Positions 35,920 to 43,409 of a DNA stretch of 55,856 nt are shown here, one piece after another; position 1 is the stretch's first letter; each line of letters opens with the position of its first letter. Made by a program: the position numbers and the translations under genes. The notes under the pieces are model-generated. The model worked only from the letters and a program-made list of their open reading frames with translations, made no database searches and had not been told where the DNA came from. The stretch is from the NCBI GenBank assembly GCA_949286885.1, contig CASEEG010000079.1, positions 1 to 55,856 on the forward strand, read 5' to 3'. The stretch comes from an uncultured bacterium. GTDB taxonomy: Bacteria > Cyanobacteriota > Vampirovibrionia > Gastranaerophilales > Gastranaerophilaceae.

Positions 35920-36273
35920 TTAATCCCTAATTTTTATGATCCATTTTAACTCAGTATCTGTATTATTAAAAACTTGGTTTAAATCAGGCAGATGTTGGTT
36001 TTGCTCCAAATTATCTTTAATTTCATTAAAATTTTCTTCATCAATATTTTGTCCGCTGCATTCTACCCAGCCATCAGGGATTTGACTACCAAACCAGAGT
36101 ATTATCGCACCTTTTGGGATTGAATCTTTTTTTTCAATAATTTGAACTTCAGGGACTTTTTGTTGTGCTTTTTTTGTTAGCATAGGTGCCATTGCCATTA
36201 ATGCAATTGATATTATGAGTATACTTACAAGCATTTCGGCAAGTGTAAATGCTTTTAAAAAATCTTTATTCAT
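35920..36273 (-). CDS. Type IV prepilin-like protein with phage tail-collar-like C-terminal segment
   Basis: The 117-residue protein starts with a class III signal: a short basic leader 'NKDFLKA', predicted cleavage A8/F9 and 'FTLAEMLVSILIISIALMAM' with the Glu+5 of type IV pilins and pseudopilins. After a 25-residue linker comes 'IPKGAIILWFGSQIPDGWVECSGQN', which follows the pattern of phage tail collar domains (IPxGxIxxWxG..PxGW..CxG). That domain is normally found on tail-fibre tips. It is small for a major pilin and resembles a minor pseudopilin tip. No pilus machinery is adjacent, and a distant prepilin peptidase would be needed. The stop is directly adjacent to that of the exported-protein gene. 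Confidence 0.75.
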   Translation of the reverse strand: MNKDFLKAFTLAEMLVSILIISIALMAMAPMLTKKAQQKVPEVQIIEKKDSIPKGAIILWFGSQIPDGWVECSGQNIDEENFNEIKDNLEQNQHLPDLNQVFNNTDTELKWIIKIRD

Positions 36274-36311: not shown

Positions 36312-36788
36312 TTATTTGTAAATCTTTTGCGATGCATAGTTTTTTATATATTCCAGAATTGCGCCGCCTATTTCTTCAGTAGGGTCAAAATATGGGCTGT
36401 TTGGGTGTAAAATTTGTTTTATCAACATTTTATTGAGAGGTCCAAATGCATCTGGAACAAGTATCCTCCTGTAAATTCCAGACAAAAATACTTGTATGTC
36501 AGGCGAGTCACTGTTATTAAACCTACTTAAAGTCGGGTATAATTTATCAATACCCTTAACTTTAATATCCAACATTCTGTTTAATATATATAGGACATCT
36601 AATATTGTTCTAATGTCATTAGTAGTTTTTAGTGTATTTTCTAGGTATGGCAGCGCTTGCTCTCTTTCGCAAACAATTTTCTCTATCTTTCCCTCATCAA
36701 AACAACAGTAATTTCTGTACTTACTTGTTGTTTGCACGTTTTTACCCAGATTGGATATGCTGAATTGTGTAATAGGATTTATTGGCAT
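36312..36788 (-). CDS. Helical-repeat-like protein of unknown function
   Basis: This 158-residue protein has no signal peptide. Beyond a polar N-terminus ('INPITQFSISNLGKN') it is predicted helical, with 'ALPYLENTLKTTNDIRTILDV' and 'VKGIDKLYPTLSRFNNSDSPD' in a HEAT/ARM-like rhythm, then 'PFGPLNKMLIKQILHPNSPY' in pattern. No family is recognised. It lies 9 nt after the 510-residue membrane protein and is the last gene of the operon that begins at 39042. HEAT-like segments also occur in the proteins at 41090 and 42378, which may point to a common family of adaptors in this organism. Confidence 0.6.
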   Translation of the reverse strand: MPINPITQFSISNLGKNVQTTSKYRNYCCFDEGKIEKIVCEREQALPYLENTLKTTNDIRTILDVLYILNRMLDIKVKGIDKLYPTLSRFNNSDSPDIQVFLSGIYRRILVPDAFGPLNKMLIKQILHPNSPYFDPTEEIGGAILEYIKNYASQKIYK

Positions 36789-36797
36789 AATGTCTTT

Positions 36798-38330
36798 CTA
36801 TGAATATACGAATGGAGGGCCGTTCTTTATTTCAAGCAATATGTTATCGGCCATAACTTTTAGTTCTTCAGGAGGTTTGCCTTCTTTTCTTTTGCGCTCA
36901 AATTCATCAATTAAGGGTGCAATAGCACTTTCTTTTTTTGCTTTGAAATTATTAATTTCAACCTCTACTAGTCTTTTTTGTAATTCTAATTCCGTTTTTG
37001 CATTTTCTCTCAATACTGCAGCGTCTTTCATTGCTTCCGCAGCTTGTTGAGCAACAAAACTCGTGGCACTAATCGCTGTCATGGCAATGAAAAGATCTTT
37101 CAAATACGGGTTGTCACTGTGAATAAGCCAGTTGTATAAGTGGCCTCTTGCTTCATTTAAATAACAATAAAAGAATGATTTTCCACTTTCCGTACTCATA
37201 CCTGTTGGTGCATTACCCCAAATATTTTCTACACCATTTTCAACGCTTGAAACAATTTCATTAATATCATCTGTACTAAACCCCGCTCTTTGTGCACATT
37301 CTCTTGCTTTTTCGCTTGTGGCACCCATTTTAATTAAAGTATCAACAAAAGTTGCCTTGTCCTTGCTTTGTGTTCTTATTATATTGTCAAGAATATCTTG
37401 TTTTTTTGATCTAAAGTTTTGAATAAATTCCTCTTGATGCTTTGCTCCTGATTTTATGTTTTTAAATGTAAAAATTCCAAGAAGTGCTGCGGCAACCAAA
37501 AATAAGCTTGATATTACAAAATGCGGATTAAAATATTCTTTCCATGATTTTTTATTTTTGCTTTGGTTGTTATTATCGCCTTTAAAATTGAAATCCTTGT
37601 AACATGGCAATTCGGTAGCTTGTTGGTTATTTTGACTTACAAGAGCATTTTTGAAATAATTGCCTTTTTGACTTAGTATATTTCTTTGAATAGCAAGTTT
37701 GCCCGAGAAGGCTCTCGTTTCAACATCTATTAAATTTTCTTGTAAATCACGCTGGATGTCGGCATCTTGTTTTTTTATCCAAATTTCTTTGCTGCCTTCA
37801 ATAAATTTTTTTGCAGTTAGGGTGAGTGCACTAAAAACAAAAACTGATATTGCAGCCAAGATATTTTGTCTGCTCGGATCTCTAAGTGCCATGTAGGTCG
37901 AAAATCCCGTTTCTTCAACAATATTCAAATTCATACCCATTGCAGGCAGTTGTTTAATAAAAGGTTGTGTCAGGTTTTTTTGTGCTGATTTTTTAAACAG
38001 CAAGCTCAATATTGCACTTAACATAAATACACTGGCAGTCCCTGCGACTAGTGGAATCATCGCTTTTTTTGTGTCATAATCTTTATCTGTTTTCGAGTTT
38101 GACAATAAAAATTTATCAATACTTTGACTTTCGTTATCGGAAATTACAAGTGTATTATATGTATCATTTAAGCTTGTTAGTCCGTCTCTATTATTATCTT
38201 TGATAAAATTATTTACAACTACCCCTTCAAGTGTGGCATTTTTTTGTTTTAACTGACGATTTGTTATGTATCGACTGTTTGCTATATTGTACTTATTTCT
38301 AACTGTTTGATTTGTTTGCACTTTCGACAA
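36798..38330 (-). CDS. Multi-pass membrane protein of unknown function
   Basis: The 510-residue protein has at least three clear membrane segments ('MIPLVAGTASVFMLSAILSL' at ~90, 'ILAAISVFVFSALTLTAKKF' at ~158, 'FVISSLFLVAAALLGIFTF' at ~270) and a weaker fourth near ~420. A large hydrophilic helical domain lies between the third and fourth ('LDNIIRTQSKDKATFVDTL'), and the C-terminus has a coiled coil ('VLRENAKTELELQKRLVEVE'). No catalytic motif or family was recognised. It overlaps the upstream gene by 32 nt and is followed after 9 nt by the small helical gene, so the three are expressed together from the promoter at 39186. Confidence 0.65.
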   Translation of the reverse strand: MSKVQTNQTVRNKYNIANSRYITNRQLKQKNATLEGVVVNNFIKDNNRDGLTSLNDTYNTLVISDNESQSIDKFLLSNSKTDKDYDTKKAMIPLVAGTASVFMLSAILSLLFKKSAQKNLTQPFIKQLPAMGMNLNIVEETGFSTYMALRDPSRQNILAAISVFVFSALTLTAKKFIEGSKEIWIKKQDADIQRDLQENLIDVETRAFSGKLAIQRNILSQKGNYFKNALVSQNNQQATELPCYKDFNFKGDNNNQSKNKKSWKEYFNPHFVISSLFLVAAALLGIFTFKNIKSGAKHQEEFIQNFRSKKQDILDNIIRTQSKDKATFVDTLIKMGATSEKARECAQRAGFSTDDINEIVSSVENGVENIWGNAPTGMSTESGKSFFYCYLNEARGHLYNWLIHSDNPYLKDLFIAMTAISATSFVAQQAAEAMKDAAVLRENAKTELELQKRLVEVEINNFKAKKESAIAPLIDEFERKRKEGKPPEELKVMADNILLEIKNGPPFVYS

Positions 38331-39042
38331 TTTCTTCTTCCTTTTCTTTTTCTTTTATGTTTAATAGTCTTCTTATGGCATCTTTTAATTTTTCTATTTC
38401 AAATTGTTTAAATACTCTCATTTCATCCTCAATTTTTTCGTCTTCTTCACTATATTCTTCTTCAATACCAAAAAGTGAGAATATTTTTCTAAAACGTCTT
38501 TTTAGTGATTTTACCGCTTCTGAAATTTTCTTTTCGACAAAGTTTTGAACCTCGCCTACAAGTGCAGTGAGTTTTTCAGCAACTCTTGCAATATCCGCCC
38601 TTATATTTTCAATTATGTTGGGCAGGTTTCTTATAATTTGAGGAAAGTCCTGCACAATTTTTACTAGTGGCTTTAGAACATTTTCTGATATTGTGGTAAA
38701 TACTTTTGCTATAGGTTTTGGCAGTGAGTTCTGTACTTTATCTAAAAAGCTTATTATACCGTTTGTAATGTTCGTTAATTGTTGTTGAATTTTTGCTGCC
38801 AATTGTGCATTCTTAAGCATGGCTTCTTGCATTGCCTGTTCTCTGGCTTGTGCGCGTTGCATTTGTTTCCATTGTGCATAACACTCTTGATATGTCATCT
38901 CGCCAGGTCGTCTTGGTTCGTCAGCTTTTTTTGTTGATGAAGCACCGCCCATGCCATTACATATGGGACAGGCACCCAGTGGTAAACCATGAGGGCAAGT
39001 ATTTGCTCGATTATTATTTACCTGTGGAGCATAGCCAGTCAT
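38299..39042 (-). CDS. Protein with N-terminal CxH-CxxC zinc-knuckle-like motif and amphipathic helical body
   Basis: This is a 247-residue protein. Near the N-terminus is 'CPHGLPLGACPICNGMGG' (C16, H18, C25, C28), a candidate zinc-binding knuckle. The region ~70-185 is a series of amphipathic helices ('AAKIQQQLTNITNGIISFLD', 'VFTTISENVLKPLVKIVQDF', 'LTALVGEVQNFVEKKISEAV') with a pattern like apolipoprotein or membrane-surface proteins. The end is highly charged. No signal peptide is present. It heads a three-gene operon behind a long structured leader that could mask its ribosome binding site AAGGAA. The function is unknown, and its product may scaffold the membrane protein encoded next. Confidence 0.65.
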   Translation of the reverse strand: MTGYAPQVNNNRANTCPHGLPLGACPICNGMGGASSTKKADEPRRPGEMTYQECYAQWKQMQRAQAREQAMQEAMLKNAQLAAKIQQQLTNITNGIISFLDKVQNSLPKPIAKVFTTISENVLKPLVKIVQDFPQIIRNLPNIIENIRADIARVAEKLTALVGEVQNFVEKKISEAVKSLKRRFRKIFSLFGIEEEYSEEDEKIEDEMRVFKQFEIEKLKDAIRRLLNIKEKEKEEEIVESANKSNS

Positions 39043-39179
39043 AAAAATTCCTTGAGCATATTAGACCGCAGCACAAGGAATTCATGTCCAAAATTGGTAA
39101 TCGCAATTCTTGGACTTATAAGTTTTCCGACTGTACGGCTGCGGTCCAGTTAAGGATTTTCACCTTATTTCCTTTTTGT
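39043..39179 (-). promoter_or_regulatory. Structured 5' leader: candidate undescribed cis-regulatory RNA with anti-Shine-Dalgarno
   Basis: On the minus-strand transcript, in order: AAGG-TGAAAAT-CCTT hairpin (39166-39152); the 9-nt arm GACCGCAGC (39146-39138); an 11-bp hairpin with one bulge (39115-39086); AATTCCTTG (39082-39074); the partner arm GCTGCGGTC (39072-39064); and the SD region CAAGGAATT (39054-39046) five bases from ATG. AATTCCTTG is a perfect complement of CAAGGAATT. Forming that pair would trap the GCTGCGGTC arm, so two competing folds are possible. The 5' part looks somewhat like a cobalamin riboswitch core, but no B12 box was found. Confidence 0.65.
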
Positions 39180-39185
39180 ATGGTT

Positions 39186-39214
39186 ATATTAACACCAAAG
39201 AAATAACGCGTCAA
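39186..39214 (-). promoter_or_regulatory. Strong sigma-70-type promoter for the 39.0-36.3 kb operon
   Basis: On the minus strand: TTGACG (39209-39214), 17-nt spacer, TAATAT (39186-39191). The expected start near 39179 gives a leader of about 137 nt. Confidence 0.75.
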
Positions 39215-41089: not shown

Positions 41090-41833
41090 ATGAGTTATCC
41101 TTTAAATCATCAACAATATATTCCGCAAACATTGCCAAGTGCGAGTTGCGGAGCAGTTTCTATAAATATTATGAATCCTACTGTAGGCTATTCAAATCCT
41201 ATGGCACCAATATGTCAAAGTGGTGTCTATCAATATCCTACCGGGACTTATTATTCGCAACAACCTTCACAAATACAATATCCTTTGAATTATAACAACA
41301 ATTTAACAAATCTTTCCGGCGCTAATGCCGTTAGCGATAATTCACAAGATCTGCCCACTCCGCCTGCACCCAGCAAGGAGGAAAAGGCGATTAATGACGA
41401 AACTAAGAATGAAGAAAAAAAGTCAGAAGAAATAAAAGAAATTACCCCTTTGACTGATGATTATATCAAAACTTTGGAGAATTATTTGAATTCTCAGGAC
41501 TCAAAGATAAGACTTATGGCTGCCAACGATTTGCTTGAACGATTTAAAGAAGATCCGAAAAGAAAAAATGATGTTGCATTAACTGCACTTTTGAATAAAA
41601 TTTTGCAAGACCCAAATTCAACAGTCAGGTTTCTCGGATTAACAACACTGGATGCGGGTTATGCACTTGGTAATGAACAAACCGTAGAATTACTGAAAAG
41701 TATTCAAGCTGATGGACAAAAAGAGTATGGCGAAGATTCGCGATTAGCTTCGCAAATCTTGTTAAAACTCAGTGCAGGGGAAAAAGTAAAATATAGTCCT
41801 GATGACAATCAATCAAAAGGAGTTGAGCAATGA
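41090..41833 (+). CDS. AVSINI-motif protein with HEAT-like C-terminal domain
   Basis: This 247-residue protein has a Pro/Gln/Tyr/Asn-rich, probably disordered N-terminal ~90 residues that contain 'CGAVSINIMNP', then a Glu/Lys-rich linker, then a helical region of ~110 residues with HEAT-type rhythm ('LENYLNSQDSKIRLMAANDL', 'NKILQDPNSTVRFLGLTTL'). No signal peptide or membrane segment is seen. The gene at 42378 shares the motif ('SAVSINIYEP') and the layout, so they are paralogues in one cluster. The family is not recognised outside this type of genome. GGAAGTGGAG precedes the ATG, and the stop overlaps the next start as ATGA. Confidence 0.7.
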   Translation: MSYPLNHQQYIPQTLPSASCGAVSINIMNPTVGYSNPMAPICQSGVYQYPTGTYYSQQPSQIQYPLNYNNNLTNLSGANAVSDNSQDLPTPPAPSKEEKAINDETKNEEKKSEEIKEITPLTDDYIKTLENYLNSQDSKIRLMAANDLLERFKEDPKRKNDVALTALLNKILQDPNSTVRFLGLTTLDAGYALGNEQTVELLKSIQADGQKEYGEDSRLASQILLKLSAGEKVKYSPDDNQSKGVEQ

Positions 41834-42279
41834 ATTGGCTGAATTTTGCTACTAAGACAGCTTCAATTTTAGCAACCGGTACATCTTTATATGATATACA
41901 TAAACTTGGGGTGCAAAGCGCAAATATAAAACGTGAAAGCAATTATGCTGACGATTTTATAGCGCAAACAATCGGTGCTTCAAAGTTAAATTATCCTAGC
42001 GAAAAACATAATAAGATGAAAGAATGGATTTTATCTTTTAAATATCCTCTGCAAGCTTCGGAAGTATTTAACACAGTCAGCGGTTACATACAGGGTGCAA
42101 TTAAAGGCATCGGATACAATCTTGGTACTCTTGGTTTTTCCGCACTTGCATTCTTTGCAAAAAAAGATTCTTTCAAGAAAGTTGGTATAATTGGTTTGGG
42201 ACTTTCTGTTGCTTGGGACTTTATAAAGAACAGTACAAACCTGTTTGAAAAAACTGACTACTTGGGAAAAAATAATTAA
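41830..42279 (+). CDS. Small protein with hydrophobic segments, unknown function
   Basis: The 149-residue protein has no classical signal peptide. It has two hydrophobic stretches, 'GIGYNLGTLGFSALAFFA' near residue 98 and 'VGIIGLGLSVAWDFI' near 120, which could form a membrane hairpin. The N-terminal part is polar-helical ('TSLYDIHKLGVQSANIK'), and 'HNKMKEWILSFKYPLQASEV' follows. No family is recognised. Its ATG overlaps the previous stop by 4 nt, so it is translated together with the AVSINI-motif protein and may anchor it to a membrane, which is speculation based on context. Confidence 0.6.
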   Translation: MNWLNFATKTASILATGTSLYDIHKLGVQSANIKRESNYADDFIAQTIGASKLNYPSEKHNKMKEWILSFKYPLQASEVFNTVSGYIQGAIKGIGYNLGTLGFSALAFFAKKDSFKKVGIIGLGLSVAWDFIKNSTNLFEKTDYLGKNN

Positions 42280-42377
42280 GAATTTACAAAACTTAAACTT
42301 TAAAGTAAAAATAGCAATAAAATTTTATCACATTATTTGTAACAACAGTAAAAGTAATATTCATAAAGGAGATTTAT

Positions 42378-43409
42378 ATGATACAACCTCAGTATTTACA
42401 GCAGCAATACCCGCAGGCACCTTCTGCAGTGAGCATAAATATCTATGAGCCAAAGAGTTATGGTTCTGCGCCGGTGCAACAAGTACCTTATTCTTACTCA
42501 AACCAGTTGTACGCTATGCCACAGGCTTCAGCATGGGCACAACAACCAATTAGCTATGCACAATCTCCTTTTCAGCAATATGCAATCCCCCAATTTGTTC
42601 CACAACAGTTACCGACTCAAATCGCTCCTGAGTTGAATACTATTCCAGTTGCACCTCAACCTATGCCTGATGCAGTAATTGATAACAATAATAACAGTGT
42701 AAATCAACAGGCAAATACTCAAGAGGTTCCGATGCCTCAGGTAGCTCAAGAGGAACAAGATAGCCCAAAAGTTGATACAGATGCACTTATTGCAGATTTA
42801 AAGAGCACAGATTATACAGTTCAAAAAGACGCATTAACATCTATCGCTAATTTTAGTCAAACTACACCCGATATTGCTCTTCAAGTCGTAACAGATCCTA
42901 TCAAACAGGCTTTGGTTGATATCATTAAAACAGATACAACAAATTTCCCGGATTTAACAGATGAACAGAAGGCACTTGCCGAAAGAAAAGATAAGGGTGA
43001 AACACTTAGTGCGGAAGAACAAGCTACGCTTGATAAACCTTCACAAAAATTAGAAGCTGACACTAACAGAGTATTGGCATTGTTTACCTTAGCAATGTTA
43101 CAAAAACTGTCAAGAGACAATGAGTCTCAATATGCTCAATTCCAGAAAGAACAAGGCAAAGAAGCACCCAAGTTTTTGGCATTAAAAGACCTTCTTGGAT
43201 ACAATGAAATAGTTAACACTATTCAAAATGATTCAAACGGTCAATTAAGAGCTGCCGCAATACAAGCTTTACAATACATAGCAAAACCGGAAGAAAAGCC
43301 TGAAGTAGAACAAATTCTACAATCTTCATTGAACGACAATGATCCTATGGTTAAACAAGTTGCTCAAGAAGCTTTGTCTAAATTAGGCGAGCCTCCTGCC
43401 CAAGCTTAA
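42378..43409 (+). CDS. AVSINI-motif protein, larger paralogue with HEAT-like repeats
   Basis: This 343-residue protein opens with a Gln/Pro/Tyr-rich region of ~130 residues ('QYLQQQYPQAPSAVSINIYE' contains the shared motif), an acidic linker, and a helical C-terminal half with HEAT-like units ('ALIADLKSTDYTVQKDALTS', 'LRAAAIQALQYIAKPEEKPE', 'LNDNDPMVKQVAQEALSKLG'). The layout equals that of the protein at 41090. AAAGGAG lies before the ATG, and the ~100-nt gap before it suggests separate transcription is possible. It is followed by a strong terminator. Such low-complexity heads plus HEAT tails suggest a scaffold; the partner and place in the cell are unknown. Confidence 0.7.
   Translation: MIQPQYLQQQYPQAPSAVSINIYEPKSYGSAPVQQVPYSYSNQLYAMPQASAWAQQPISYAQSPFQQYAIPQFVPQQLPTQIAPELNTIPVAPQPMPDAVIDNNNNSVNQQANTQEVPMPQVAQEEQDSPKVDTDALIADLKSTDYTVQKDALTSIANFSQTTPDIALQVVTDPIKQALVDIIKTDTTNFPDLTDEQKALAERKDKGETLSAEEQATLDKPSQKLEADTNRVLALFTLAMLQKLSRDNESQYAQFQKEQGKEAPKFLALKDLLGYNEIVNTIQNDSNGQLRAAAIQALQYIAKPEEKPEVEQILQSSLNDNDPMVKQVAQEALSKLGEPPAQA

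Follow-up and report, generated by a model that had tools for sequence, protein, structure and literature searches.

A probable AdoCbl-II-type cobalamin riboswitch precedes a conserved three-gene operon in Candidatus Gastranaerophilales

The leader upstream of an anonymous operon on the minus strand of our window (the whole 55,856-nucleotide stretch of DNA that was analyzed, to which positions refer unless another genome is named) appears, by sequence comparison, to be a divergent, minimal cobalamin riboswitch of clan CL00101 and AdoCbl-II type. In all likelihood it represses translation of the conserved three-gene operon in the presence of B12. Class, fold, conservation and regulon were established by comparison, and we infer the direction of control, the ligand and the role of a 9-bp stem. 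The riboswitch class itself is already known; the new part is a B12-controlled operon found across the order, and the relocation of the partner of loop L5 in the genus of the window is a secondary point of value. The signal sensed by the leader, which the original prediction had left open, is now answered with high probability as B12, and an anonymous operon becomes testable. Three families without known function would be tied to B12 metabolism across an order of gut bacteria that are related to cyanobacteria but do not photosynthesize.

We assigned the following parts to the promoter and leader.

39209..39214 (-), -35 box TTGACG; direct reading, a consensus match only
39186..39191 (-), TAATAT, the -10 box, with a 17-nt spacer to the -35 box; direct reading
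39116..39189 (-), match to the AdoCbl-II aptamer (RF01689); cmscan, 34.1 bits against a gathering cut-off of 36.5
39172..39174 (-), P3 5' strand AAG; P3 covariation in 56 homologues
39152..39166 (-), P4 hairpin AAGGUGAAAAUCCUU; 98.2% of cells paired, double changes in 3 of 4 pairs
39139..39149 (-), P5/L5 CUGGACCGCAG, which includes most of the 9-mer GACCGCAGC (39146-39138)
39127..39138 (-), P6 hairpin CCGUACAGUCGG; pairs invariant in 56 homologues
39118..39126 (-), J6/3 and P3 3' strand, with segment B (AACUUAU, 39124-39118); P3 covariation and B:E test
39086..39115 (-), hairpin at the P13 position, GUCCAAGAAUUG-CGAUUAC-CAAUUUUGGAC; L5:L13 in own leaders versus chimeras, 0/2000
39079..39085 (-), segment E (AUGAAUU), the predicted partner of segment B in the B12-free state; B:E test
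39074..39082 (-), segment C, the anti-Shine-Dalgarno AAUUCCUUG; C:D and A:C tests
39055..39073 (-), Shine-Dalgarno (SD) hairpin loop with GCUGCGGUC (39072-39064), the L5/P5 complement; UGCGG counts
39046..39054 (-), segment D, the Shine-Dalgarno region CAAGGAAUU; direct reading

The promoter (TTGACG-17-TAATAT) and the ~137 nt leader, which runs up to the ATG at 39042, lie where they had been predicted, and TTGAC-type boxes were also found 5' of several leaders from the same genus. Both of the proposed 9-bp pairings are exact. In the long-range stem, GACCGCAGC (39146-39138) is the reverse complement of GCTGCGGTC (39072-39064), and in the pairing proposed to cover the ribosome binding region, AATTCCTTG (39082-39074) is the reverse complement of CAAGGAATT (39054-39046). 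When the leader was shuffled with dinucleotide composition preserved (n = 1000), at least one perfect 9-bp helix arose in 38 sequences (3.8%) and at least two arose in 0/1000. The fold z-score of the leader is -3.8. The middle hairpin of the original prediction is present as well (39115-39086).

A resemblance to cobalamin riboswitches had been suggested for the 5' part, and it holds up as a match to RF01689. At gathering thresholds, a cmscan search of the window reported tRNAs only and not the leader. With an E-value threshold, the leader matched the full model (E = 2.5e-6 in 501 bases; 1.9e-6 in the whole genome) at a score 2.4 bits below the cut-off, which is a curation threshold and not a biological feature. 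Because the window copy is sub-threshold, we claim membership of the cobalamin clan and the AdoCbl-II type from the family of orthologous leaders. Among 20 leaders from orthologous or related loci, 16 passed the cut-off (36.9 to 54.4 bits), including three from the same genus (L013, L009 and L020). The covariance-model search thus removes the novelty of class, and the leader is better described as a divergent member of the cobalamin clan than as the new class of regulator first proposed. Nor is it the case that the rest of the leader fails to match, as had been stated: P5/L5 (CUGGACCGCAG), P6 (CCGUACAGUCGG), J6/3 and the P3 3' strand all do. J3/4 (GAAAU) and a four-nucleotide J6/3 lie at the positions of the Rfam model, and alignment and pair counts reveal a P3-P4-P5-P6 core in which the GGAAA, L5/P6 and J6/3 sequence is conserved, a feature of clan CL00101.

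We counted the pair cells of P3, P4, P5 and P6 in an alignment of 56 distinct homologous aptamer cores. Overall, 95.7% of cells were paired, compared with at most 49% in slid controls, and 99 cells carried changes on both sides, compared with 35 in shuffles (0/500). P3, P4 and P5 are backed by covariation, and P6 is invariant in the 56 homologues. The window has AAG:CUU at P3, where most genera have GAG:CUC and others have GUGG:CCAC or GCGGG:CCCGC; the window P3 is short, with 3 safe pairs only.

The operon consists of three genes, the first of which has the regulated start codon.

38299..39042 (-), gene 1, 247-aa CPHG..CPxC protein, regulated start codon
36798..38315 (-), gene 2, ~505 aa, helical, apparent membrane segments; no known family
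36312..36788 (-), gene 3, 158 aa; no known family

By tblastn of 80 orthologous loci, gene 1 was found in 80/80, gene 2 in 80/80 and gene 3 in 78/80, with the order kept. As originally described, the operon has no known function: genes 1-3 yielded no Pfam or NCBIfam match above cut-offs. The best Pfam match of gene 1, to baculovirus PEP_C (E 1.3e-8), is below the cut-off, and we took it as a helical or coiled-coil match. Residues C16, H18, C25, C28 and C54 of gene 1 are invariant and are followed by long helices; the cysteines and histidine are suggestive of a metal site. The AlphaFold model of gene 1 is poor (pLDDT 59). Gene 2 is predicted to be all-helical (pLDDT 72), and a fold search with it gave a best match of E 0.09 and no relative of solved structure. 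Elsewhere in the window, positions 35920-36273 (-) encode a 117-aa protein in which an N-terminal methylation (pilin-like) motif is fused to a phage tail-collar domain, and positions 41090-43409 (+) encode adjacent proteins that combine HEAT-type repeats with low-complexity N-termini; two of these proteins are apparently related to each other.

A model built from the aptamer cores was searched in 58 genomes and then in 24 more, and the element was found in 55/58 and 22/24 of them, respectively. Orthologues of the CPHG protein occur in 70 of 98 related genomes, which named records place in Candidatus Gastranaerophilales. Counting from the position tables, we found the element no more than ~420 nt upstream of the CPHG gene in 69 of these 70, G076 being the exception; the leader is therefore kept upstream of the orthologues. 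The window's own genome has a second AdoCbl-II copy (C6:16374-16446 (+); L001 1501-1573), which scores 39.9 bits, above the cut-off, and lies directly 5' of nrdD, the gene for anaerobic ribonucleotide reductase. We inspected 37 other element sites, identified representative downstream genes by profile searches and assigned the remaining sites, except for a few such as L194, by similar N-terminal sequence. The element precedes nrdD, cobalamin-independent metE and genes for TonB-dependent receptors with BtuB-type similarity. Genes for NrdD, MetE and BtuB-like TonB receptors belong to the classic B12 regulon and are classically repressed by B12, which makes a corrinoid (B12) the very probable ligand. 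NrdJ, the B12-dependent class II reductase, is present in the window's own genome and in most relatives, which fits repression of NrdD by B12. The CPHG gene and NrdJ co-occur with an odds ratio of 9 and p 0.003, values that are confounded by relatedness and incomplete genomes, and 7 genomes have the CPHG gene but not a full NrdJ; we gave this co-occurrence no weight in the argument.

Several other element sites deserve mention in their own right. TonB-dependent receptors stand behind the riboswitch in some genera (L192, L199, L206, L209 and L217), with a probable role in B12 uptake; the L206 site belongs to the window's own genus. Behind the riboswitch at L194 (G026:C7:7580-11000) lies a 94-aa ORF of no assigned family, with another such ORF downstream. 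Two near-complete family members (G030 and G040) lack all three of riboswitch, CPHG gene and NrdJ, as though they no longer used B12. A literature search, with subscription journals and preprints outside its scope, returned no paper on B12 riboswitches in these bacteria or on the operon.

We looked for alternative pairings in 89 leaders whose SD hairpin was clear, grouped in 44 clusters, by comparing each leader's own complementarity with that of chimeras drawn from unrelated clusters; these controls lessen, but do not abolish, the effects of shared ancestry. Segment A (AAGGAA, 39174-39169) is the P3 5' strand running into GGAAA. The two strands of P3 (A:B) were better matched in their own leader, with 1/2000 chimeras as good, and for the strands of the SD hairpin (C:D) the count was 0/2000 across the 89 leaders. 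Complementarity also exceeded that of chimeras for A:C (13.55 vs 11.92, 0/2000) and for B:E (12.10 vs 10.32, 0/2000). The control pair A:E had no excess matching, with 1159/2000 chimeras as good. In the window leader, B:E forms 6 of 7 pairs, with one mismatch, and it is perfect in some relatives from the same genus. There is thus statistical support for two mutually exclusive sets of pairings, of which A:B with C:D would hide the SD and A:C with B:E would expose it. The earlier proposal of a cis-acting RNA that controls translation through alternative folds is supported.

We propose that, with B12 bound, P3 would form from A and B and enclose P4, P5 and P6. The anti-SD (C) would then be freed to pair with the SD region (D), and ribosomes would be blocked. 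With no B12, A would pair with C, and B with E just 5' of C, so that D would be exposed and the operon translated. Since the ligand-bound aptamer has A:B as its canonical P3, B12 should switch the operon off. Energy predictions for the window gave a free-state MFE of -37.4 kcal/mol, with the L5:loop helix formed and the SD unpaired, and -31.3 kcal/mol for the aptamer plus SD hairpin, ligand energy not included. When the AUG is included, the SD pairs with P4 in the MFE structure, and the free state as predicted is then not clearly open. Of the 89 leaders, only 55 are more stable in the A:C fold than in the aptamer fold, and the window leader is not among them.

Two other accounts of the leader were weighed against repression by B12. 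We give very little credence to the reading first proposed, a new class of riboswitch or protein-binding leader of unspecified ligand. It would fit with the window leader alone falling under the Rfam gathering score, with an SD-hairpin loop whose complementarity to L5 is absent from the Rfam model and with downstream genes of no known family. However, orthologous leaders exceed the AdoCbl-II cut-off, covariation in the core follows the cobalamin fold and the same element precedes nrdD, metE and BtuB-like genes, and on these grounds a new RNA class was rejected. It is also unlikely, though less so, that a cobalamin-clan aptamer activates the operon, with the ligand stabilizing the SD-open fold. 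An activating corrinoid riboswitch is known from A. halodurans cobT (PMC10653944). The window MFE with the AUG, which pairs the SD in the ligand-free fold, would agree with activation, but the canonical P3 takes strand A and so releases the anti-SD, which can then cover the SD. A further point against activation is that metE, nrdD and TonB receptors, the targets at other sites, are classically repressed by B12.

The 9-bp stem involves L5, whose partner differs among genera. In most genera, the variable bases of the P13 loop (P13 being the hairpin that follows P3 and precedes the SD hairpin) match those of L5, with CUGC occurring with GCAG, CAGC with GCUG and UUGC with GCAA, and 0/2000 chimeras were as good. 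This statistically supported pairing corresponds to the L5-L13 kissing loop of corrinoid riboswitches, for which such a loop and an RBS hairpin are established (PMC10653944). In the window genus, the loop of P13 (the middle hairpin) is without the L5 complement found in other genera, and the SD-hairpin loop has (C/U)UGCGG, which complements CCGCA(G) in L5 and P5. UGCGG is present in this loop in 15/15 same-genus leaders by eye and in 14/15 by the automatic count, in which one start codon was misplaced. The same automatic count found it in one (L021) of 97 other leaders; L089 also has UGCGG, farther from the start. Such a loop arises in ~2% of shuffled sequences.

We regard the 9-bp stem of L5 with the SD-hairpin loop as a genus-specific addition, either an anti-aptamer helix or a relocated kissing loop. 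We modestly prefer the view that it acts mainly as an anti-aptamer helix when B12 is absent. It is quite possible, although we lean somewhat the other way, that the loop GCUGCGGUC is a relocated L13 that kisses L5 when B12 is bound and clamps the SD hairpin, as in env8-type switches. In the metE switch of P. megaterium, CCG:CGG are the pairs that function in the kissing loop (PMC10653944); here, UGCGG is kept in every same-genus leader and the usual L13 loop has no complement. On the other side, the conserved block has CCGCAG as its partner, and the P5 3' strand is part of CCGCAG, so that L5:loop as a full 7 to 9-bp helix would disrupt P5; the energy model places this helix in the ligand-free fold. 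The nested MFE has the 9-bp helix excluding the SD hairpin. As a kissing interaction, though, the 9-bp stem can be topologically compatible with the anti-SD:SD stem, and exclusion is not necessary. The originally proposed competition is supported as regards alternative folds, but its two named pairings need not be simple rivals: they can coexist loop to loop, and the order-wide competition uses other segments, A and D being the rivals for C.

Genes repressed by B12 classically serve B12 uptake or B12 synthesis or encode B12-independent isozymes, and regulation by B12 narrows the likely roles of the operon to B12 acquisition or life without B12. We tentatively suggest, as a possible but rather doubtful reading, that it is an undescribed system of Gastranaerophilales for acquiring corrinoids or surviving B12 shortage, whose L5 kissing partner has moved into the SD hairpin in the window genus.

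The leader shares with AdoCbl-II RF01689 the GGAAA joining segment, P4 with a GUGAAAAUCC-type loop, P5/L5, P6, J6/3 and P3, as well as having no large P6 extension and a position 5' of B12-related genes. It is unlike RF01689 in that the window copy is slightly sub-cut-off and has a very short P3, and in that the SD-hairpin loop of the window genus has a long L5/P5 complement. With the translational switches env8HyCbl and E. coli btuB, it shares an RBS hairpin as expression platform; leaders of other genera also share the L5-L13 kissing loop, which has a bulge in env8 and in most leaders here (PMC10653944). Unlike in those switches, the leaders here have a separate SD hairpin 3' of P13, and their anti-SD strand also complements the aptamer 5' strand, which would allow strand exchange. 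Exclusive expression-platform folds coupled to L5-L13, together with repression by corrinoids, are features of the P. megaterium metE switch (PMC10653944) that the leaders described here would share. That switch, however, uses a transcriptional terminator and a competitor from P13, whereas the leader described here has an SD hairpin, and its predicted competitor is the aptamer 5' strand.
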